Source: Paludibacter sp. (GTDB lineage: Bacteria > Bacteroidota > Bacteroidia > Bacteroidales > Paludibacteraceae). From it: DNA of 64,000 nt. Shown here in pieces: positions 15,818-46,049 of this stretch; position 1 is the stretch's first letter, and every line of letters starts with the position of its first letter. The notes beneath the pieces were generated by a model that saw only the letters and a list, made by a program, of their open reading frames with translations, did no database searches and was not told where the DNA came from. The translations under genes were made by a program, and so were the position numbers. The stretch spans positions 186,001 through 250,000 of the forward strand of contig JAQVAV010000005.1 of the NCBI GenBank assembly GCA_028690665.1. Direction: 5' to 3'.

Positions 15818-15973
15818 AGAAGGGTGCCCAAAAAGAAAAAGAACGCAAGTCTCCGCAAATTAACACAAACCATAAGTTATTGATAATGTGGTAATATCGC
15901 AAATTGAATTTGCGTAAATTTGTGTGATTTGCGCAATTTGTGTTGAAAATAAACACTTATTGGACACCTTCCT
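15818..15973. repeat. MITE-like palindromic repeat, copy 1
   Basis: A 156-bp element with imperfect 14-bp terminal inverted repeats (AGAAGGGTGCCCAA on the left; the right end reads AGGAAGGTGTCCAA on the other strand) and further internal inverted segments rich in CGCAAATT. A clearly related element lies at 34237-34413: both share a run near AAAAAGAACGCAA inside the left end and GATTTGCG(C/T)AATTTGTGTT near the right end. It has no coding capacity. It sits just after the aminotransferase stop and could act as a transcript end. Confidence 0.75.
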
Positions 15974-34236: not shown

Positions 34237-34413
34237 ACATTCAGGAGGGTATCCAAAAAGGAAAAAGAACGCAAATTACGCAAGTATCCGCAAATCAGCA
34301 TAATCTACAAATGACTGATATTGTGATAATAATAGAAATTTCATTTGCATAATTTTATATGATTTGCGTAATTTGTGTTCAAAAAATTACTTATTAGACA
34401 ACCTCCTGAATGT
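34237..34413. repeat. MITE-like palindromic repeat, copy 2
   Basis: A 177-bp element with 20-bp terminal inverted repeats (left 34237-34256, right 34394-34413; 17 of 20 match, core ACATTCAGGAGG). Internal sequence matches copy 1 at 15818-15973. It lies in the middle of the PUL operon, 5 bases after the stop of the CBM protein gene at 34419 and 14 bases before the ATG of lipocalin-like lipoprotein B. An RNA copy would fold into a long hairpin and may adjust expression of downstream SusC/SusD relative to the upstream enzymes. Confidence 0.8.
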
Positions 34414-34418
34414 TTTTG

Positions 34419-35807
34419 TTATTTAACTAAAACTTTATTGATTTTGCGGTCTCCATTTGAACTTACAGACACAATGTAGAGACCCGGTGAAGCTGCGATT
34501 GTGGCAGAATTATGAAATGTAGAGCTATGTACCAAATCGCCCAAAGTATTGTATACATTCACAATTGAATTCGTACTCGAAATATCGGATACGTATATCA
34601 TTCCTGATTTTGAATAAACATGAACTCCATCCGATTTGGTTACTTTAGTTCCACTCGTAATTTCAAAACGAGGATCTGGTGAATCGTTGAGAGTGATTTC
34701 ATCCAAATAATAGGTATTTGATGAAGAGTTTACATATTCTCCGGATGTTTCATCTGTTTTTACATCAAAGCGCACGGTCAGTTCTTTCAGATAATCAATA
34801 CTGTTCAACTCCATGACAATATCCAGCCACTCATCAACCTGGTCGTCCCAAACAGTTTCCAGATAATTATTTTCTGCTCCGGTGTGATCCTTTGCGCAAA
34901 GCTGAACATCTACACCCATTCTGTCTTCCAGAGCAACCGATGGCACATATACCATCGCATGTAAATATCTTGTATTATCGTTCAACTCCATAGTACCATT
35001 GAATACGGTTCTGAATCCCTGCCACCATGATGCCTGATCACTTTTATAAAATTCTACAACTTTTCCCTGAGAATTAACTTCGCTGGTTGTAAAAGGATTG
35101 TCTATTATCTGGTAAGTATTATTTACATTCAAAGTATCAAACTCTCCGACCCATTCGTCGATGGCTGTCTGGTTTTCAAAATTAAGATTAAAACCTGTCG
35201 GATCAATGACTGTAACTCCTGTTGGTATCGGATCAGAGGAAAGTTGAAAATCATCAAAAGCATAAGTTCCTACGCCCCAACCAGAACGTGGGTCAGTCCA
35301 GTTACAGCTAAATATAAAAGTAATGTCGGTAAGAGTTTTTCCCATCCAGTTGGCACCCAAATCAGCGACGACACCAACCCAAGTTGCGTCCTCTGAAACT
35401 AAGCCCTGATAAACAGAATAAGCGTCTTCATGTTCCTGATTCCCGTTTTCGTTCACACAGATTCTAAAATCTTTGGGCTGAATAGAGCGATAAACTAAAA
35501 ATTTTAAATAACGATTATCTTCGGTAATAGTAACAGGGGTTTTAAAGGTTAATTCGCCAAAATTCCCCCACCAGTCGGCATCCGCTACATTGACTGCCAA
35601 GAAACATTTGTCCGAGGTATTGAGACCTGATTTAGACGGGTTATCACCAATACATGGTTCTACTGAAAAGAGAGCTGATTCATACCATTTAGATCCAAGT
35701 TCAAGTTGGTCAGTGCCGGTATCTTCAAAAGTTGCTAATACTTGTGCCTTCACAGTATAAGTAAGGCTCAATAAAGCGCATGCGCAAATTGTAAATAATT
35801 TTCTCAT
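34419..35807 (-). CDS. T9SS-sorted protein with putative carbohydrate-binding domains
   Basis: A 462-residue secreted protein without a recognised catalytic domain. Signal peptide 1-21 (TVKAQ). Residues about 22-190 form a beta-sandwich-like domain (TFEDTGTDQLELGSKWYESA, WWGNFGELTFKTPV, YLKFLVYRSIQPKDFRI, AFDDFQLS) that recurs in the proteins at 39318 and 44314. Residues about 200-375 are a second, diverged copy with WWQGFRTVFNGTMEL. The last 70 residues are a T9SS sorting domain (GDLVHSSTFHNSATI, SPGLYIVSV). The domain resembles galactose-binding folds but is not a family I can name. It follows the propeller-deacetylase A gene. Confidence 0.75.
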   Translation of the reverse strand: MRKLFTICACALLSLTYTVKAQVLATFEDTGTDQLELGSKWYESALFSVEPCIGDNPSKSGLNTSDKCFLAVNVADADWWGNFGELTFKTPVTITEDNRYLKFLVYRSIQPKDFRICVNENGNQEHEDAYSVYQGLVSEDATWVGVVADLGANWMGKTLTDITFIFSCNWTDPRSGWGVGTYAFDDFQLSSDPIPTGVTVIDPTGFNLNFENQTAIDEWVGEFDTLNVNNTYQIIDNPFTTSEVNSQGKVVEFYKSDQASWWQGFRTVFNGTMELNDNTRYLHAMVYVPSVALEDRMGVDVQLCAKDHTGAENNYLETVWDDQVDEWLDIVMELNSIDYLKELTVRFDVKTDETSGEYVNSSSNTYYLDEITLNDSPDPRFEITSGTKVTKSDGVHVYSKSGMIYVSDISSTNSIVNVYNTLGDLVHSSTFHNSATIAASPGLYIVSVSSNGDRKINKVLVK

Positions 35808-35964: not shown

Positions 35965-38900
35965 TCATTCTCTGATAAATCGAAAAGAGCCGGACATATT
36001 ATCATTTTCGACATGCAGAATATAAATTCCGTGGGTCAGATTTCTCACATCGACAAAATGTGAAGAATTACCTGTCTGAAGCAAACCATCCATCAGGCAA
36101 ATTCCCTGCATATTGTATATTGAATAATGTCCGTTAACAGAAATATCGGATTTCAGTATTAATTTGTCTTTTACAGGATTTGGATAAATCTCGATATCGT
36201 TATCGCTAATTCTATTTATTTCTGAAGATTTATCCTTCACCAAAATCAGTTTTTGCCGGTCAGGAATTACATTGATCTGGAATTTTCCCGTTGAAGGGGT
36301 ATAAATACTGTCACTAATTACTGATTCTCCTTCAATCACACGACATTCTGCCGATGTCCAGCCATCCGGCAAGTTAACCGTTAAGGTCAGTGGATGGTAA
36401 AATCCCGTTGTGTCCAAAAAGGTCTGTACCGTGATGTCATATTCTATGCTGTCGCTGTTTATTTCGGTGCGTAGTACACGCATGTTATCACGTTCCTGAG
36501 CATATTGAACTATATCGCCGAATGTTGCAGGCCAAATATCACCACTTGCTTTTTTCTCAGCCAAATACTCACACATTTCTGTCAACCATTCAGTGGTAGC
36601 TATTTCGTAAGTGTCGGAAGTCGACAATAAACTGAAAGGCAGCACCTCATGAATGCACAACACCCCGAAATTACGATTGCGGCGAACGGTACTTTCTATA
36701 GATGATTTTAAATCATCAAAACTGACTGAATCATTCGACAATGAACGCGGTTCTGTCCATGTCAACAAATCGGAATTGATTGTGTAGCATTCGCTCTTAC
36801 TTAATGAAGCATTATTTTCAAGCGTACCACATTGGCGGGCGCCGATAAATAACGGAGCAGCTACATTACGAACATCCTCGTTATTCAAGCAATACGGATA
36901 GGCGTGCGACAAGCATTTTTTCCCTATATTTGATTCAATATTTTCTTTATCCTGTTCCAACTCTTCGTATATACTATTGTAAGGCAAAGAGGTCAAATCT
37001 GGATGAGTCAATGAATGAGAACCTATTTCATACCCGTTATCAGCCATTTCCTTGAAATCTTCCCAAAAGCCGTAACGGCCTTTTTGTGTTTCGCCTTTAT
37101 GTACCAAATTCCCGGAATTTACAAAAAATGTAGCTGGGATATTGTGCTCTTTCAGTACGGGATAAGCATAGGTGTAATGTGCTTCAAAGCCGTCGTCAAA
37201 AGTCAGAGCCATGGCCGATTTGGCATTATTGTACCAACGTGTGGCCGTTACGCCTGTACTACTCGAGCCTTTTTCATAACGGAAATTTTTAAAACGATGA
37301 AATGTAATATAATTAGCATTATGCTGACTGTTTGCCTGCCCGGTTTCATCATCCCAGGCTGTACGCGATACGGCAATAATGTCATCTCCATCGAAAAGCC
37401 AGTCGAGATACTGAAAACCATGATAGGAGATTTCATCCACGTGTAATAATATCTCTTTTATAGTCCAGTTTTTGAGGTCGGACGAATACGAAAGAGCAAT
37501 AGTGTTTCGTGTACGTTCCAGATTTCCACCTCTGTCAGCCGGAAGTACATAGTTGCTCAATGTCCAGTATTTACCTGAAATGGTATCGTAGCGAATGGTG
37601 AATTTTTTCAGCGCCCCAGGGAGCGAAACAAAACTGTTCTCAGCATCAAAGCTTGCCATTTTCCCATCAGCCGAAATATCCACAATTGCCGCAATGTCAT
37701 CCGAAGCATAATTCACACGAAGAATATCTTTTACAGTTCCATCTTTTGCTATCACAGCATTTCCTTCTAACCAAGCATTACCATATCCGTTTAGTCCCGC
37801 GTCAAAGGTGAGTTCATTGGAAAACGTCCAATTCGAAGCATCCAACAAGTCTGTATTTTCATCAACAGACATCATAAAAGCCTTAAAATTTCCCCACGAG
37901 CCGTTGGCTTCTCCTCTATCCTCCATTGCTCTCCAATACCTGCCGTTATATTTGACTACCGGCACCGGTGCACAATGATAATAACCGCTGCGCAATAGTC
38001 CGTTTGTACTGTTTGTAGGACTTGTCCATGTCACCCCGTTATCCAGCGACTTTAGAATCACCGTATTACCATATTCGGCTCCATTCACGTTTACACCGAT
38101 CAAATAAACTTCATTCCCCCTGCGGAAAATAGTTGACCATTTTAAATGCATAATTTCTGCTATGCGCTCCCAGGTTTCTCCTTTATCTGTTGATTTATAT
38201 ACAAACGATTCCGTAGTTGTTCCAAAATAATCATGAGACGCCAGATAAGTTCCATCCGCAAGTACTACTATGCTTGGCGAACCAATATATATTTGTGAAG
38301 AAGCTTTTGAATTATGAATTACAACTCCGGGAGGCGGAACAAAATCCTGTAACAAAGTGTAATCTATCGTTTCGGAAGACAGCACAAGAACTCCCTGCCA
38401 GCCAGTAGCATTAATGGAAAATTTATCTCCCAACGCAAATGATTTTTTATATACTGTAAAGGTTGTATTATTAGGATCATTATATTGAAACTCAATATCT
38501 GAAACTTCAGTCCACCCATTCTCAGTCGGGTCGTAACTGGTATCTTCACCGGAAACAGCAATATACACATCACCAGCTTCTTCTACTGTTATTTGTAATT
38601 TAGGGACGCTACCTCCGTTATATCGGGTAAAATACAGCCCTTTTATCTGATCGTCCACAGAACTGAATACATACGAACGATTAGCATAAGCAACTGTTCC
38701 GTTGTCCAACACGGACGTCTCCAGCCAGCCGGAGGCTGAAATAGAAACTTTTGCCGCGTCAATCGTTTGAACTACCGCCTCCGAAATCCCCGGGGCAATA
38801 ATCAACGCCCCACTAAATGTTTCCGGCTGCACGATATTTACCCAGTTATTGGCAACGCAGGCTTTCTTATAAATCGAAAATGTTTGGTTTACATTTGTTC

Positions 38901-39276
38901 CAAACGGAATTGCCAACGAGGATACCAATTCCCAACCGTTATCAGAAGCCCATTGTGCACAAACCGTGGGCTTTTCCTGATCTTCTACCATGGCATAAAT
39001 AAATCCATCTCCATCGGGCTTTACCTGAAAGGCAGGGAGCGGACCTGACTGCCAACTGGAATTGGCATTGATTTTAGTAAATTTCCATCCTGCAGCATAA
39101 TCTGTCGGTATAGTTCCAAGGCTCATATTTGTCCGATTAGAAAAAGGATATTTTCCCGTTTCCAATGATTCAATACTGAAATTATTCCCTTTTATAACAA
39201 GAGAGGGAGTTTGTGCTATTCCATTATAAATAGTGATGCAACAAAATAGCAACAATAATGCTAACCTGTTTTTCAT
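35965..39276 (-). CDS. Propeller/NodB polysaccharide deacetylase fusion A, T9SS cargo
   Basis: An 1103-residue multidomain surface protein. Signal peptide 1-22; two beta-rich modules (about 23-175 and 176-310); a BNR/sialidase-like propeller (about 315-680) with Asp-box-like STDKGETW and SLDNGVTW; a NodB polysaccharide deacetylase domain (about 685-900); a linker; and a T9SS sorting domain (about 1030-1103, IYPNPVKDKLIL). The NodB metal site is intact: TFDDG with Asp694/Asp695 and His754/His758 in SHSLTHPDL; LCIHEV supplies the late His motif. Expected activity is removal of N- or O-acetyl groups; the propeller may bind or cut glycan. It is a paralogue of the gene at 40990. Confidence 0.8.
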   Translation of the reverse strand: MKNRLALLLLFCCITIYNGIAQTPSLVIKGNNFSIESLETGKYPFSNRTNMSLGTIPTDYAAGWKFTKINANSSWQSGPLPAFQVKPDGDGFIYAMVEDQEKPTVCAQWASDNGWELVSSLAIPFGTNVNQTFSIYKKACVANNWVNIVQPETFSGALIIAPGISEAVVQTIDAAKVSISASGWLETSVLDNGTVAYANRSYVFSSVDDQIKGLYFTRYNGGSVPKLQITVEEAGDVYIAVSGEDTSYDPTENGWTEVSDIEFQYNDPNNTTFTVYKKSFALGDKFSINATGWQGVLVLSSETIDYTLLQDFVPPPGVVIHNSKASSQIYIGSPSIVVLADGTYLASHDYFGTTTESFVYKSTDKGETWERIAEIMHLKWSTIFRRGNEVYLIGVNVNGAEYGNTVILKSLDNGVTWTSPTNSTNGLLRSGYYHCAPVPVVKYNGRYWRAMEDRGEANGSWGNFKAFMMSVDENTDLLDASNWTFSNELTFDAGLNGYGNAWLEGNAVIAKDGTVKDILRVNYASDDIAAIVDISADGKMASFDAENSFVSLPGALKKFTIRYDTISGKYWTLSNYVLPADRGGNLERTRNTIALSYSSDLKNWTIKEILLHVDEISYHGFQYLDWLFDGDDIIAVSRTAWDDETGQANSQHNANYITFHRFKNFRYEKGSSSTGVTATRWYNNAKSAMALTFDDGFEAHYTYAYPVLKEHNIPATFFVNSGNLVHKGETQKGRYGFWEDFKEMADNGYEIGSHSLTHPDLTSLPYNSIYEELEQDKENIESNIGKKCLSHAYPYCLNNEDVRNVAAPLFIGARQCGTLENNASLSKSECYTINSDLLTWTEPRSLSNDSVSFDDLKSSIESTVRRNRNFGVLCIHEVLPFSLLSTSDTYEIATTEWLTEMCEYLAEKKASGDIWPATFGDIVQYAQERDNMRVLRTEINSDSIEYDITVQTFLDTTGFYHPLTLTVNLPDGWTSAECRVIEGESVISDSIYTPSTGKFQINVIPDRQKLILVKDKSSEINRISDNDIEIYPNPVKDKLILKSDISVNGHYSIYNMQGICLMDGLLQTGNSSHFVDVRNLTHGIYILHVENDNMSGSFRFIRE

Positions 39277-39317
39277 AGGCTTTTATTTTTTATTAGCTAA
39301 TTAAAAATTTCGTATTG

Positions 39318-40145
39318 TCACTCTTTTATAAATTGAAAAGATTTTGTTTCATTTATTTTCAATATATAATAGCCTTTTTTAAGGTTGCTGACATTTAATG
39401 ATTTCTTAACGCGTTGTTCCAATAATTTCTTTCCCATTATATCAAAAACAGAAACTTGATATGGAACAGACTGTTCCGAAGCACTGATATATAAAATGTT
39501 TTTTACCGGATTGGGATATAAAACGATATATTCATCTTGCATATTATTGATTGAACTTGGGTCAGTAGGTTGAGGATAATTCCGTAATTCAAAATCGTCA
39601 AACATATAGGTAGACTCCCCCCATCCCGAACGAGGTTCACTCCAATTACAGCTAAATATAAAGTTTAATGAAATTAACTCCCGTCCCATAAAAGTTCCTA
39701 AATCGGCACAACATTCAATCCATTTGTCATTTTCAGCAAGCAGACCAAAAAAGACTACGTTTTGGTCATTTTCATAATTATCGTTTATTGCAATGCGAAA
39801 AGGTTTAGGTTGGATTGAACGATAGGCTTTGAAATATAAATATCGGGTACTTTCTGTTACCAAAATCGGATTTTTCAATTTCAATTCACCGAAATTACCA
39901 TCCCAGTCCGCATCTGGTATATTTATCGCCACATAAGATTTTGAAGATGTATTAATATCTGGCTTTGTATTAATTCCAATATGTGGCTCTGACACAAAAA
40001 GAGATAACTCAAAATTGATAGGTTCGTTTACATACAATAAATCTGTACTTTCATCTTCAAAAGTAGCTAACACAATCGTTGTTCCCTGTTGCGCATTCAG
40101 GAAAGAAAAAAACATCATTTCAAAAAGTAAAATATATTTTCTCAT
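39318..40145 (-). CDS. T9SS-sorted single putative carbohydrate-binding domain protein
   Basis: A 275-residue protein with a signal peptide (1-18, FLNAQ), one copy of the domain shared with the proteins at 34419 and 44314 (LATFEDESTDLLYV, DWDGNFGELKLKNPI, YLYFKAYRSIQPKPFRIAIN, MFDDFELR; about 24-195), and a T9SS sorting domain (VLYPNPVKNILYI to LKKGYYILKI; about 205-275). With nothing else in it, it is effectively an isolated surface copy of the domain and a good test case for glycan binding. Stop and the next start (propeller-deacetylase A) are 41 bases apart. Confidence 0.75.
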   Translation of the reverse strand: MRKYILLFEMMFFSFLNAQQGTTIVLATFEDESTDLLYVNEPINFELSLFVSEPHIGINTKPDINTSSKSYVAINIPDADWDGNFGELKLKNPILVTESTRYLYFKAYRSIQPKPFRIAINDNYENDQNVVFFGLLAENDKWIECCADLGTFMGRELISLNFIFSCNWSEPRSGWGESTYMFDDFELRNYPQPTDPSSINNMQDEYIVLYPNPVKNILYISASEQSVPYQVSVFDIMGKKLLEQRVKKSLNVSNLKKGYYILKINETKSFQFIKE

Positions 40146-40259
40146 AACGGAGATAACTATGAATAAATTGGCAATTGGAGTATACTCCTCGCCAATTGCT
40201 CATAAGCAGGTCTTTAAGCATTAGCTTTTGTTGTGTTTTTAGTCATCTTTTGTATCCAT

Positions 40260-40880
40260 TCAATAAGTCTTTTTTGTAAAATTCAAATATTTCATGGTAT
40301 ACCCAAATCCCAGTCCAGCTATTGTCCAAATCGGAATCCCAATCAAAATCATTGTCAGTGTTATTTCTTCTCCGGTAATTAGAGGATTGATAATGGTCAT
40401 TAAAATGAACATAATTCCACTCCATGCAAATCCGATTTTTAACCAACTACCATTTTCGTATTTTATCTCCTCTATTTTGAGATTTTCAAACCTTTTGGGT
40501 TGTTCTTTTAACCACCTTTCTTTCCACTTTTTTACAAACCAAATCCAAATTGGAACTGTCAGAATAATTACAATTAAGCTTGTCAGATTTCGTAAACATG
40601 GAATTATGTTACCACAATTTGGACAATAATAACCAAACCAATTCTTAAATCCATTCCTTTTCGCCCACAGTCTTCCGTCATTCAATTCTCCGCAATGAGG
40701 ACACGGAAAAAATTGTCTGTCTATGAGTGGTCTGTCTATTGTTTTGTCAAACAGAATAACTTTTGGAGCTCTTTGTCCTAAAATTAATTCATTGATCACT
40801 AATCCGGGATTAAGAATCCAATGAATCATAATCCAATGTTTCCACGTCCACGCTGTAAACTTTGTTTTGTCGTACTCCAT
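40260..40880 (-). CDS. Zinc-ribbon membrane protein, function unknown
   Basis: A 206-residue protein with a cytoplasmic-looking N-terminus carrying a zinc ribbon (CPHC near residue 60 and CPNC near residue 85, 22 residues apart), followed by a helix (LIVIILTVPIWIWFV), a charged loop and two more helices near the C-terminus. It has no signal peptide, no T9SS tail and no link to glycan breakdown, unlike every neighbour. Aromatic-rich WTWKHWIMIHWILNPG opens the protein. It sits between the two halves of the duplicated module and may be an inserted cargo gene. Family not recognised. Confidence 0.6.
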   Translation of the reverse strand: MEYDKTKFTAWTWKHWIMIHWILNPGLVINELILGQRAPKVILFDKTIDRPLIDRQFFPCPHCGELNDGRLWAKRNGFKNWFGYYCPNCGNIIPCLRNLTSLIVIILTVPIWIWFVKKWKERWLKEQPKRFENLKIEEIKYENGSWLKIGFAWSGIMFILMTIINPLITGEEITLTMILIGIPIWTIAGLGFGYTMKYLNFTKKTY

Positions 40881-40989
40881 CTTTATTTTTCTAAAATTAC
40901 GCCTAACAATCTGAAAGTTGAATAAGTCTTAAAAAGTCTCTCATCTTACAGTCGTTTTAGGGCAGACTTATTTCAATTCAGATTTACTT

Positions 40990-43900
40990 TTATTCCTTAA
41001 CAAATCGAAATGAATCCGAGATATTCTCATTTTCAATATGTAAAATGTAAATTCCGGGCATGATATTAGAAACATCAATAAAATGTTCGGAGTCAAATTC
41101 TTGATTAAAAAAACAAACTCCTTGCATATTATATATTGAACAAAACCCTTTGATAGGATTTTCAGATTTTATCTCTATTTTGTTTTTTACCGGATTCGGG
41201 TAAATCCGAATATCAGTCTTTTCAGAGTAATTCTGAATTCCGGATGCCTCTTCCTTCACTAAAATCAGTTTTTGCCGGTCGGGAATTACATTGATCTGGA
41301 ATTTTCCCGTTGAAGGGGTATAAATACTGTCACTCATCGTTGTCCCGGCTTCCATCACCCGGCAACGGGCCGATGTCCAGCCATCCGGCAAGTTAACCGT
41401 TAAGGTCAGGGGATGGTAAAATACCGTTGTGTCCAAAAAGGTCTGTACCGTGATGTCATATTCTATGCTGTCGCTGTTTATTTCGGTGCGTAGTACACGC
41501 ATGTTATCACGTTCCTGAGCATATTGAACTATATCGCCGAATGTTGCAGGCCAAATATCACCACTTGCTTTTTTCTCTGCCAAATACTCACACATTTCTG
41601 TCAACCATTCAGTGGTAGCTATTTCGTAAGTGTCGGAAGTCGACAATAAACTGAAAGGCAATACTTCATGAATACACAATACCCCGAAATTACGATTGCG
41701 GCGGACGGTACTTTCTATGGAGGATTTTAAATCATCAAAACTGGCTGAATCATTCGACAAGGAACGTGGTTCTGCCCATGTCAACAAATCGGAATTAATC
41801 GTATAACATTCGCTTCTACTCAATGATGCATCATTTTCAAGACTACTGCATTGACGGGCACCTATAAAAAGCGGAGTTGCTATTTCCTGTACATCTTCGT
41901 TGTTCTGGCAATACGGATAAGCATGGGATAAACATTTTTTTCCGATATTGGTTTCGATATTTTCTTTATCCTGTTCCAATTCTTCGGCCACATCATCGGC
42001 TGACAGAGATGTCAAATCGGCATGGGTCAATGAATGAGAACCTATTTCGTAGCCGTTATCGGACATTGTTTTAAAATCTTCCCAAAAGCCGTAACGATCT
42101 TTTTGAGTTTCGCCTTTATGTACCAGATTCCCGGAATTTACAAAAAATGTAGCTGGGATATTGTGCTCTTTCAGTACGGGATAAGCATAGGTGTAATGTG
42201 CTTCAAAGCCGTCGTCAAAAGTCAGAGCCATGGCCGATTTGGCATTATTGTACCAACGTGTGGCCATTACGCCTGTACTACTCGAACCTCTTTCATAACG
42301 GAAATTTTTAAAACGATGAAAAGTCAGGTAATTGGCATTATGCTGACTGTTTGCCTGGCCGGTTGCATCATCCCACGCAGTACGAATAACAGCAATAATA
42401 TCATCTCCATCAAAATCCCAATCGGCATACTGGAATCCGTGATGGGTAATATCATCAACATGAAGAAGAATTTCCTTAATAGTCCAGTTTACCAAATCTT
42501 CCGACCAGCACAAAGCCATCGTATTTCTGACACGCTCCAGACTGATGCCCTGATTTGTGTCTGCCGGTAATACGTAATTACTCAAAGTCCAGTATTTATT
42601 GCTGATACTATCATAATGAATCGTAAATTTCTTCAATGCTCCCGGAAGATGAGATATTCCTGTCTGAGGGTCAAATGTCGCTGTTGTTCCATTATCTGAA
42701 ATTTTTATTATACCAGCTTCATTGTCAGGCGTATAATGCAAGCGCAAAACATCAACCATGGATCCGTCTTTTGCAATAACAGCATTGCCTTCGAGCCAGG
42801 TCCACGCATCTATCGCTCCAGCCACATATTGCAGTTCATTGCTTATAGTCCAGTTAGCCGCATTCAGCAAATCGGCATTTTCATCAGCCGACATCATAAA
42901 AGCACCAAACGGGCCCCAACCATCTACTTTTCCCTGATTTTCCATAGCTTTCCACACCCGGCCTTTATGAAAAACAACCGGAGTTGGAGCACAAGTATAA
43001 TAGCCATCCATCAAAAGCCCGTTCGTACTATTCGTTGGATTTGTCCAAGTGTATCCACCATCATAAGATCGTAATATGACTACATTACCATACCCCATGG
43101 TACCTTTAGGAGCCACACCCATCAGGTATAGTTCATCTCCCCTCGTAAACAGTTTGGCCCAATTCAGAGTATTTATCTGGGCTATCTGTTCCCAGGTTTC
43201 TCCTTTATCAGTAGATTTATATACAAACGCGTAGGAAATTATGCTCCCAAAATAATCATGCGAAGCCAAATATGTTCCATCCGGCAAAACAACGATACTC
43301 GGAGAACCTACATACTTATTGGTAGTTGCCGGAGAATTATGAATAACAACTCCGGGAGGAGGATTGAACCAGCTTTCCTGATTGACATAATCAATTGTAC
43401 CCGAAGAAAGAACAAGAACTCCCTGCCAACCGGTTGACTTTATTTCAATAATATCCCCTTCTTCAACCGACTTTTTATAAATCGAGAATGACGTAGAATA
43501 TGAATCATTATAACTAAAACTCAGTCCGTCGACCTTCGTCCAGCCATTAGCTGCAACATCATAGGTTTGATCTTCATCTGACTGGGCAATATACATATCA
43601 CCTGTTTCTTTCGCGGTTATTTTCAATTTTGGAGGAGCTCCTCCATTATAACGGGTAATATTTAAATCGGCCAGTTCTTCCGAAACAGACCCAAACACAT
43701 ACGAACGGTTAGCATAAGCAACTGTCCCATTGTCCAACACGGAAGTCTCCATCCAACCCGTAGCAACAATAGATACCGAAACAGCCTGAATGGTTTCGAC
43801 AGATGAATTTACATCGGTAATTTCGGGAGCAATAACGATAGCTCCACTGAATGTAGCAGGCTGAACCACATCAATCCACTCATCTTTCACACATGCTTTC

Positions 43901-44301
43901 CGATAAAAATAAAGTTTTGCCGCTTGTGTATCTCCATAAGAAATAACCAATCCGGGAATTGAATCCCAACCGTTATCTTCGGCCCATTGCGCACAGACAG
44001 CCGGCTTTTCATAATTAGCCACCAAAACATAAATATACCCATCCTCATCGGGCTTTACCTGAAAAGACGGAAGGGGACCGGATTGCCAGGATGAGTTCGC
44101 ATTAATTTTGATGGTTTTCCAGCCGGTATAATCGGCTGGAATATCACCAAAAGGCATAGTGGTCCTATTATAAAATATCTGATTCCCTTTAGTCAGATCC
44201 TGTATTCCAAAATTTTCACCTTTTATCTGAAGACCCGGAACGGCATAGCAGATCCCAATAACTACCGATAAAAGCAGATATGATAACAATAGACGTTTCA
44301 T
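40990..44301 (-). CDS. Propeller/NodB polysaccharide deacetylase fusion B, T9SS cargo
   Basis: Same architecture and exactly the same length (1103) as the gene at 35965: signal peptide, two beta-rich modules, BNR-like propeller with STDKGETW and SYDGGYTW, NodB deacetylase with TFDDG and SHSLTHADL, linker, T9SS sorting domain. The N-terminal modules, propeller and sorting domain differ at many positions from paralogue A, but the deacetylase and following linker are nearly identical in protein and DNA, with blocks of over 100 residues unchanged. Two paralogues that share a catalytic half but differ in the binding half suggest the same chemistry on different glycan contexts. Confidence 0.8.
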   Translation of the reverse strand: MKRLLLSYLLLSVVIGICYAVPGLQIKGENFGIQDLTKGNQIFYNRTTMPFGDIPADYTGWKTIKINANSSWQSGPLPSFQVKPDEDGYIYVLVANYEKPAVCAQWAEDNGWDSIPGLVISYGDTQAAKLYFYRKACVKDEWIDVVQPATFSGAIVIAPEITDVNSSVETIQAVSVSIVATGWMETSVLDNGTVAYANRSYVFGSVSEELADLNITRYNGGAPPKLKITAKETGDMYIAQSDEDQTYDVAANGWTKVDGLSFSYNDSYSTSFSIYKKSVEEGDIIEIKSTGWQGVLVLSSGTIDYVNQESWFNPPPGVVIHNSPATTNKYVGSPSIVVLPDGTYLASHDYFGSIISYAFVYKSTDKGETWEQIAQINTLNWAKLFTRGDELYLMGVAPKGTMGYGNVVILRSYDGGYTWTNPTNSTNGLLMDGYYTCAPTPVVFHKGRVWKAMENQGKVDGWGPFGAFMMSADENADLLNAANWTISNELQYVAGAIDAWTWLEGNAVIAKDGSMVDVLRLHYTPDNEAGIIKISDNGTTATFDPQTGISHLPGALKKFTIHYDSISNKYWTLSNYVLPADTNQGISLERVRNTMALCWSEDLVNWTIKEILLHVDDITHHGFQYADWDFDGDDIIAVIRTAWDDATGQANSQHNANYLTFHRFKNFRYERGSSSTGVMATRWYNNAKSAMALTFDDGFEAHYTYAYPVLKEHNIPATFFVNSGNLVHKGETQKDRYGFWEDFKTMSDNGYEIGSHSLTHADLTSLSADDVAEELEQDKENIETNIGKKCLSHAYPYCQNNEDVQEIATPLFIGARQCSSLENDASLSRSECYTINSDLLTWAEPRSLSNDSASFDDLKSSIESTVRRNRNFGVLCIHEVLPFSLLSTSDTYEIATTEWLTEMCEYLAEKKASGDIWPATFGDIVQYAQERDNMRVLRTEINSDSIEYDITVQTFLDTTVFYHPLTLTVNLPDGWTSARCRVMEAGTTMSDSIYTPSTGKFQINVIPDRQKLILVKEEASGIQNYSEKTDIRIYPNPVKNKIEIKSENPIKGFCSIYNMQGVCFFNQEFDSEHFIDVSNIMPGIYILHIENENISDSFRFVKE

Positions 44302-44313
44302 TAATAAATAACT

Positions 44314-45999
44314 TTATTTTCCTGAAATAATAATTTTTTTACTATTGATGCTTCCATCACTATATTTTATTTTCACAATGTAGGCGCCAGCGGATAAAGT
44401 TGAAAGGTCATCAGAAAGAAGCTTTGTTCCTGCTATTGTATAGATGGATTCTGAAACTTTTGTTTTTTCTGATTGAGTTAAAAAATTGTTTGTAGATATG
44501 TCTTCAGTAAAATGAGCAACATAAGCCAAATCGATACTTCCGGAAACAGAAGGAGAATAGTTTACATCGGTAGAAACTTCTTCTCCGTTCAAAGTCCAGT
44601 TAACAAAAGTATAGCCTGCATTTGCCGTAGCTATTAAAATCAAACTTTCTCCCGGAGAATAATAACCGGACGTAGTGGAGCCAGCTGTACTACCTCCCGC
44701 GGCCGGATCTGCGGCAACAGAAACGAGCACAGGAGTATCGGTATTGTCTGAAAGAGCAAAATTATCGAAAGCATGAATTGAAGTTTGGGCTGATCCTCCG
44801 GACCAATCGCAATTGTAGACAAACACAATACTTTTAAGCAACTTTTTGTCTTTCAAGGAAGACAAATCAACAACTACATGTTCCCATACGCCATCCTGAC
44901 TTGCTTTTCCCTGATATATTTCTGATTCTTGATCGCCATTTATAGCAACCCTGTAATTATATAACTGATTCGTCCGATACACCATGAACTTCAGGTATTT
45001 ATTATTGTCTGTAATCAAAACAGGCGTTTTCAATGCCAGTTCACCAAAGTTACCCCACCAACCGGTTTTTTGGGTTGTTGCAGAAAAACAAGTAGAAGAT
45101 AAATTTAAACCGGTTTGACTTTGATTTACTCCAATATTGGGCTCGGAAGAAAATTCTGATGAATCATACCATTTTGTTCCTTTAACCAAAGAATCGTTAA
45201 CTGCATCTTCAAAAGTAGCTCTCAACTTAGTCCCATAAGTTGCGCCGTTTAGTTGTGTTATTTGTTCAAAGTTTAAAGCCTGATCAAAAATTTCGATATC
45301 ATCAAAATAGCTTCCTCGTTCACAAGCCTGACTGTTAAATCTTAAACTTGTTAGGACTGAATTTGGAACGGCGTAATTAGATACAGCAGACTGAAATACA
45401 CCATTGATATATAATTGTAAGTTTGTCCCTTGTTTCACAATTACATAATGTGCCCAATCATAGATATAATTTGCAGGCGTAAGAGAGGAATTCAAGTAAC
45501 TATTATTGGCATATTTTAAGCTAGGTTTGCTACTATTCCACCAAGCTACAGTACGAAACTCAAACGTAGCTCCGTCAAATAGAAATAGTTGAGGAAACCC
45601 ATTTAATGTGGGGTTTGAACTAGTCCCAGATTTAGTCCAGAAAGAGATAGTAAAATCACCTGTCCCTACCAATGATGAACTTGAAATAATCCTTAGACTC
45701 CGGTTACTTGTATTTTGAGTGGTGCTATTATTAGCATCAGTCCAAGTATTTGGCAAAAAAAGAACATTACCTCGTTCCTCATCTGTGACAATAGATGCAT
45801 CCGAAACGTAACTTGTAGCACTTGACAAGTCCGTAATAACAGCAGTAACATCTCCTACGGTTGGAGCAAGTTCATGAGAATTGGTTATCTCATCACAGGA
45901 ATACTTTAATGTCGGAGTCGGCAATACGCTCTGAGCACTTAATTGTACTGTAAAAACAGATACAAGCAACATGTAAAAAGTAAAAATTTGTTTTTTCAT
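44314..45999 (-). CDS. LamG plus putative carbohydrate-binding domain protein, T9SS cargo
   Basis: Signal peptide 1-22 (VQLSAQ); LamG/concanavalin-like domain about 40-240 (FTISFWTKSGTS, NLQLYINGVFQ, FDDIEIFDQAL); one copy of the domain shared with 34419 and 39318 about 250-405 (ATFEDAVNDSLVKGTKWYD, WWGNFGELALKTPV); an InlB-B-repeat-like module about 425-490 (AGYTFVNWTLNGEEV); a T9SS-type C-terminal domain to the end (LSAGAYIVKI). No catalytic domain is seen. The ATG at 45999 is preferred to one at 46011 because the signal peptide starts there. The propeller-deacetylase B gene follows after 12 bases. Confidence 0.75.
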   Translation of the reverse strand: MKKQIFTFYMLLVSVFTVQLSAQSVLPTPTLKYSCDEITNSHELAPTVGDVTAVITDLSSATSYVSDASIVTDEERGNVLFLPNTWTDANNSTTQNTSNRSLRIISSSSLVGTGDFTISFWTKSGTSSNPTLNGFPQLFLFDGATFEFRTVAWWNSSKPSLKYANNSYLNSSLTPANYIYDWAHYVIVKQGTNLQLYINGVFQSAVSNYAVPNSVLTSLRFNSQACERGSYFDDIEIFDQALNFEQITQLNGATYGTKLRATFEDAVNDSLVKGTKWYDSSEFSSEPNIGVNQSQTGLNLSSTCFSATTQKTGWWGNFGELALKTPVLITDNNKYLKFMVYRTNQLYNYRVAINGDQESEIYQGKASQDGVWEHVVVDLSSLKDKKLLKSIVFVYNCDWSGGSAQTSIHAFDNFALSDNTDTPVLVSVAADPAAGGSTAGSTTSGYYSPGESLILIATANAGYTFVNWTLNGEEVSTDVNYSPSVSGSIDLAYVAHFTEDISTNNFLTQSEKTKVSESIYTIAGTKLLSDDLSTLSAGAYIVKIKYSDGSINSKKIIISGK

Positions 46000-46049
46000 A
46001 ACAGTGAACATTTTAAAGTATTAGAAATCGATTGAATTATTAGAAAAGA

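Follow-up and report, generated by a model that had tools for sequence, protein, structure and literature searches.

The 64,000-nucleotide stretch of a Paludibacter sp. genome analysed here (the window; contig JAQVAV010000005.1, positions 186,001 to 250,000) carries two neighbouring genes, A (35965–39276) and B (40990–44301), both on the minus strand. Each encodes 1103 amino acids, in which two N-terminal modules, an Asp-box propeller resembling sialidases, a NodB-type polysaccharide deacetylase domain, a linker and a C-terminal sorting domain of the type IX secretion system (T9SS) are joined in one chain. B is a full-length paralogue of A. We consider it likely that an ancestral gene with this fused architecture was duplicated in tandem long ago, and that at least two short gene conversions between A and B followed. 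The region encoding NodB and the linker is a mosaic of nearly identical patches around an island whose synonymous divergence comes close to that of the rest of the gene.

Diverged and homogenised DNA in the gene pair

In the alignment of A with B, 2385 of 3279 nucleotides are identical, and the boundaries of the mosaic were set by a two-state segmentation of this alignment. The flanks are diverged (1207/1899 nucleotides identical, 63.6%, and 166/256, 64.8%) with synonymous sites near saturation, in agreement with the first-pass annotation, which had described the binding modules, propellers and sorting domains as drifted. Between the flanks lie four high-identity segments. In the direction of transcription, the first is small and lies towards the end of the propeller (A 37316–37356, B 42335–42375; 39/41 nucleotides identical). 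After a break of 8/13, three main patches follow at 96.5–97.6% nucleotide identity. Patch 1 (A 37055–37302, B 42074–42321; 241/248) contains catalytic motif 1, TFDD, at residues 692–695. Patch 2 (A 36350–36777, B 41369–41796; 413/428) contains the motif-5 residue His876 and part of the linker, and patch 3 (A 36233–36315, B 41252–41334; 81/83) stops at the linker end. Between patches 1 and 2 remains the island within NodB (A 36778–37054, B 41797–42073; residues 741–833; 212/277), which contains motif 2 (HSLTH, residues 754–758), motif 3 (AYPYC, residues 792–796) and Arg814, while a smaller break at A 36316–36349 (18/34) separates patches 2 and 3. NodB and linker had been described as almost identical in DNA, which holds for the patches, at about 97%, but not for the 277-nucleotide island (76.5%) and the 34-nucleotide break that interrupt them.

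The homogenised zone starts about 30 codons ahead of the NodB–linker cassette (A 36232–37263, residues 672–1015; B 41251–42282, residues 674–1017), at the end of the propeller, and stops at the cassette end (residue 1015). The longest exact run shared by A and B is 154 nucleotides, where 10,000 codon shuffles gave 27 on average and 56 at most; it encodes residues 907–958, beyond the last catalytic motif. Exact runs inside the patches measure 53–154 nucleotides; the longest is 20 nucleotides outside residues 641–1015 and 23 nucleotides in the island. In a self-comparison of the window (E 1e-6), A with B is the only alignment longer than 200 nucleotides.

As the synonymous measure, we counted identical codons among the degenerate codons that encode the same residue in A and B, leaving out the codons of residues 641–658 and 977–987. 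Outside residues 641–1015, 196 of 416 such codons are identical (0.47), where codon usage of A and B predicts 0.43 at saturation, against 73/77, 121/134 and 25/27 in patches 1, 2 and 3 (219/238 in total). Synonymous divergence is therefore not uniform along the genes, a uniformity that would have spoken against the gene conversion proposed in the first-pass annotation. In the island, 42 of 72 codons are identical (0.58), which does not differ significantly from the value outside (Fisher p = 0.10) and is far below that of the three main patches (p = 3e-10). Patch 2 itself is uneven, its residues 834–878 (33/42 codons identical) looking older than residues 879–976 (88/92; p = 0.004, at a boundary chosen post hoc).

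Probable gene conversion and competing explanations

Patches at homologous positions with old divergence between them point to repeated short gene conversion. Exact runs of 20–23 nucleotides are short for starting recombination. The cassette, evolving more slowly in protein, might have retained identical runs able to start it, and each conversion would renew such runs. One ancestor would already have joined the N-terminal modules and the sialidase-like propeller to NodB, the linker and the T9SS tail; an old tandem duplication of this fused gene would have given A and B. Later homologous recombination would have copied short tracts of about 80–430 base pairs between them, all in or bordering the NodB cassette, leaving the old unconverted island in between. 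Conversion tracts in Salmonella tuf genes are contiguous in more than 96% of cases according to the available text of that report (PMC5485169), so that patches on both sides of an old island would need at least two events.

With just these two copies in the genome, the only donor visible for either gene is the other. No third A/B copy or DNA donor was found elsewhere in the genome, and third-position GC gave no hint of a conversion donor. A and B come out as sisters in the trees of the propeller (100/100), of NodB (100/100) and of the island (99/95), which fits a fusion that preceded the duplication, and their islands are mutually closest among 11 sequences. Replacement of the island from a foreign source is disfavoured by this sister relationship. 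The same relationship, together with the homologous positions of the patches and the old NodB island that each copy has kept as its own, also disfavours the recent partial re-duplication that had been offered as the other origin of the mosaic. The earlier suggestion that conversion keeps the deacetylase chemistry fixed is not supported either: conversion has passed over His754, His758, Pro794 and Arg814, all of them in the island, and the longest identical run is found beyond the last motif. Because the island keeps 79% amino-acid identity despite near-saturated synonymous sites, selection on the protein would be enough to hold the active site. The island could thus serve as an internal control, indicating identity made by exchange and not by selection on the catalytic site.

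Alternatively, the cassette could have joined one propeller gene only after the duplication and then moved to the other copy, so that the identity would reflect youth instead of repeated conversion. The homogenised zone indeed nearly coincides with the cassette, sharing its end at residue 1015 and starting only slightly earlier. Late transfer should, however, have left the island nearly identical unless it was later replaced from a close source, and the genome contains no third copy; the island is instead nearly as diverged synonymously as the rest of the gene, yet the two islands are sisters. We regard this alternative as unlikely. Still less probable is an assembly artefact in which reads of A and B were mixed where the genes are most alike. 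The 4.05-Mb genome is in 29 contigs and the exact runs of 139 and 154 nucleotides are close to short-read length, but 26 aligned sites across the four high-identity segments still distinguish A from B, the contig is 289 kb long, and a diverged island between patches is unexpected from mixing. Least probable of all is that purifying selection on the DNA itself, through an overlapping gene or RNA element, holds the patches identical without exchange: antisense open reading frames of 143 and 178 codons do run across patch 1 (37015–37446 and 42034–42570), but they extend into the diverged part of the propeller, an overlapping antisense gene is rejected for patch 2, the longest, where such frames (listed from 40 amino acids up) reach at most 44 codons in A and 41 in B, and 88 of 92 synonymous codons identical over 98 codons far exceeds the constraint expected.

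Several observations weigh against old duplication followed by repeated conversion, or against the functions attached to the two proteins. No close relative with the fused gene was found, so there is no outgroup for the direction and timing of conversion or for the order of fusion and duplication. The island is slightly nearer to identity than the DNA outside (0.58 against 0.47, p = 0.10), and the apparent age step within patch 2 depends on its post hoc boundary. AlphaFold models built from two-sequence alignments have predicted local distance difference test (pLDDT) scores of 36.6 and 36.9 and lend the domain functions no support, and the deacetylase and propeller activities of A and B are predictions from sequence.

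Deacetylase and propeller halves

The two genes have, as first annotated, equal length and the same domain order and lie about 1.7 kb apart, with 1713 bases between them; the proteins are 71% identical over their full length. A signal peptide, judged by eye, stands at the N-terminus of A, and the first 313 residues of A (38338–39276) form two related modules, N1 and N2, about 25% alike, of a type that recurs in propeller proteins of two other loci (L055 and L028). The propeller of A spans 37264–38337 (residues 314–671), as delimited by a 16-sequence alignment and a profile alignment, and that of B 42283–43362 (about residues 314–673). PF01522 matches residues 684–807 of A and is above the cut-off of 23.1 bits in both genes (104.5 and 98.9 bits); relatives show the same extent of NodB plus linker as the cassette of A. 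The T9SS sorting domains lie at 35974–36189 in A and 40993–41205 in B, with Por_Secre_tail (PF18962) and TIGR04183 above cut-off in both.

Both copies have Asp694, Asp695, His754 and His758, none of which varies among the 11 sequences aligned; these residues supply the Asp-His-His metal site and catalytic Asp of CE4 motifs 1 and 2. Pro794 of motif 3 and His876 of motif 5 are likewise found in both copies and in all 11 sequences. Motif 3 reads AYPYC, without its Arg; Arg814, at a distance, is invariant in the same 11 sequences; for motif 4, these share no invariant Asp in the stretch from Arg814 to His876. In the accessible portion of PMC10967932, the NodB2 class has AYPYG as motif 3, and by analogy with NodB2 Arg814 may replace the motif-3 Arg. 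The nearest solved structures by profile are 6dq3, 7ax7, 4u10 and 2iw0. In a PHROGs search, phage proteins matched only through their NodB-like parts (best E 2e-6), and no match came from viral contigs. The best PF01522 match in the genome, on contig 8 (open frame 1125; L007, 7240–10590), was considered as a third paralogue and rejected: this 1116-residue protein, unrelated to the A/B fusion, has no propeller and combines GH18, NodB and family-2 glycosyltransferase (GT2) domains, all above the Pfam cut-off.

The propeller appears from profile comparison to be a distant relative of sialidases with part of the GH33 active-site set. Pfam BNR matches stay below threshold in both genes (BNR_2 at 20.6 bits in A with a cut-off of 31.4, none in B), and among four relatives scanned, one passes at 35.7 bits (G926) and three score 28.8–30.6. 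A profile of 16 propeller sequences aligned with one built from 12 GH33-type sequences of related genomes with a probability of 97% (E 1.2e-10, 280 columns), whereas the NodB profile, used as a control, reached 1.1%, over 15 residues common to both alignments by construction. GH33-type sequences were called by a BNR_2 match and the RIP motif; L099, without that motif, was dropped, and of 18 sequences first cut out, mostly from another BNR_2 group, only L087 was used. Glu504, Arg520 and Tyr623, invariant in 16/16 sequences, are in exact register with a Glu, an Arg and a Tyr of GH33, which we take to be the catalytic Glu, the second Arg and the nucleophile Tyr. Arg590, also invariant in 16/16, lies one residue beside the third GH33 Arg, whose position is occupied by Thr589. 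The propeller alignment is gapped at the expected GH33 position of the acid/base Asp, and no conserved Asp was found there. The first Arg of the triad, in the RIP motif, is replaced by Gly or Thr in all 15 sequences that cover the site, and for this reason we do not file the propeller in GH33.

Stand-alone propellers annotated as "sialidase family protein" in genomes of the same phylum are 36–55% identical to the A/B propeller, and a plasmid-borne relative of Burkholderia pyrrocinia with the same annotation (L106, 5950–7149) is 41% identical. Their gene neighbourhoods were screened by blastp with reference proteins from three of the same loci, so that the counts are lower bounds, and one locus covers 3.6 kb. 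Among 12 propeller loci, stand-alone or module-bearing, SusC or SusD occurs in at least six, a sulfatase in at least four, a DHDPS-family protein and a sodium-solute symporter in at least three each, and fucose isomerase and YhcH in at least two each, with none of them in four loci. Nine NodB loci showed no SusC/SusD, sulfatase, DHDPS, symporter, fucose isomerase or YhcH in the same screen. Among the loci tested with Pfam, three have a confirmed DHDPS match and one a confirmed SSF match. The propeller gene is clustered with the DHDPS-family aldolase in three loci (L026, L060 and L064), and with the symporter as well in the last two. The neighbours of the B. pyrrocinia relative are kdsA, kdsB and a gene of KpsF type; a capsule gene is also close by.

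The DHDPS-family (NanA-type) aldolase genes near 3 of the 12 propellers and the Kdo-synthesis genes in B. pyrrocinia hint, weakly, at acidic 2-keto-3-deoxy sugars as the propeller substrate. One could imagine a two-headed surface enzyme whose propeller, a sialidase-like glycosidase of a new kind, removes a 2-keto-3-deoxy sugar acid such as Kdo or a nonulosonate from the end of a glycan while NodB deacetylates the same glycan, the twin copies diversifying their recognition parts and exchanging only the cassette. We think this quite improbable, all the more because one Arg is one residue out of register.

Genomic setting, origin of the fusion and known systems

The SusC/SusD pairs and T9SS tails of the window are indicative of Bacteroidota. 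The locus around A and B contains two SusC/SusD-type pairs, GH2, GH30 (PF14587) and GH127 enzymes, a hybrid two-component regulator, a Glyco_hydro_cc protein with an H-lectin domain, and a SASA-type esterase whose nearest solved chains are named sialate O-acetylesterase and carbohydrate esterase FI8. This second esterase makes an acetylated glycan target plausible; arabinogalactan, considered from the GH30, GH127 and GH2 genes, is a guess. A and B would be exported by the T9SS as products of a polysaccharide-utilisation locus, their N-terminal modules and propeller might bind the end of a glycan, or even trim it, and NodB would remove acetyl groups through its bound metal beside the GH2, GH30 and GH127 enzymes.

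Directly upstream of A, a small T9SS protein gene (39318–40145, minus strand) encodes a module also found in the gene upstream of B and in the one downstream of A, and the LamG protein directly upstream of B (44314–46011, minus strand) has the same module (31–44% at the amino-acid level). The proteins at 34419–35807, 39318–40145 and 44314–46011 have one repeated module in common (31–47%), as if a unit of module-protein and fusion gene had been duplicated. Between A and B, 40260–40880 encodes a 206-residue protein whose zinc-ribbon-like motif scores below cut-off; the window self-comparison showed no second copy of this protein. Elsewhere in the window, stretches of about 160 nucleotides at 15818–15973 and 34243–34407, outside long open reading frames, are 74% identical.

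With A or B as the query, no second propeller–NodB fusion was found in overlapping samples of other genomes (0/99, 0/394, 0/394, 0/299 and 0/392, the last four scored on no more than the two top candidates from each genome) or among the 47 others of the 48 genomes in the genus sample. Matches in other genomes covered either the propeller half or the NodB half of A and B, never both, and tblastn or blastp of the separate halves on fetched loci agrees. None of 72 matching plasmid records had one place covering 80% of the query. Titles and abstract openings of the papers found in literature searches gave no sign of a propeller–NodB fusion, and PMC4071793, in its available part, is not about one. 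The impression in the first-pass annotation of an architecture without a characterised example has thus stood as far as these samples reach, and A and B appear to be a new combination of known parts.

Those parts may have been joined end to end, modules and propeller to NodB, linker and tail. A 1029-residue protein of a family relative (G926) has the BNR_2 propeller and Por_Secre_tail above cut-off, several N-terminal modules by eye, and no PF01522. In G042, one of two long propeller proteins has a tail (TIGR04183 above cut-off, PF18962 just under). NodB–linker proteins likewise carry tails of their own, with PF01522 and PF18962 above cut-off in all three scanned (L058, L065 and L066). Because NodB relatives carry their own tails, end-to-end fusion may be as likely as its alternative, an insertion of the cassette ahead of the propeller's tail. 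Either way, the fusion could couple deacetylation to the recognition or trimming of a glycan.

Compared with known families, the NodB half has the TFDD and HSLTH motifs, the motif-3 Pro and the motif-5 His of CE4 enzymes (PF01522), and departs from them in a motif 3 without Arg, as in NodB2, and in the extra C-terminal linker. The propeller shares with GH33 and the sialidase superfamily the Asp boxes and a Glu, an Arg and a Tyr in register; unlike GH33, it lacks the first Arg, has an invariant Arg one residue beside the third, shows no acid Asp at the expected, gapped position, and in A and B stays below threshold in the BNR models. The stand-alone propeller family differs from A and B in that none of the propeller proteins compared matched NodB. 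The gene pair thereby leads to an uncharacterised sialidase-like propeller family, seen here in two phyla, that has part of the GH33 set without the first Arg.

Gene conversion itself is a known process, and ribosomal RNA operons are, beside tuf, further duplicate bacterial genes that undergo it. As in A and B, the tuf paralogues of one genome are patchily near-identical in the available text of the Salmonella report (PMC5485169). Unlike in tuf and the ribosomal RNA operons, homogenisation in A and B is limited to one part of a strongly diverged pair, which would make the pair a clean natural case of conversion that stays within a single module of a multi-module carbohydrate-active protein.

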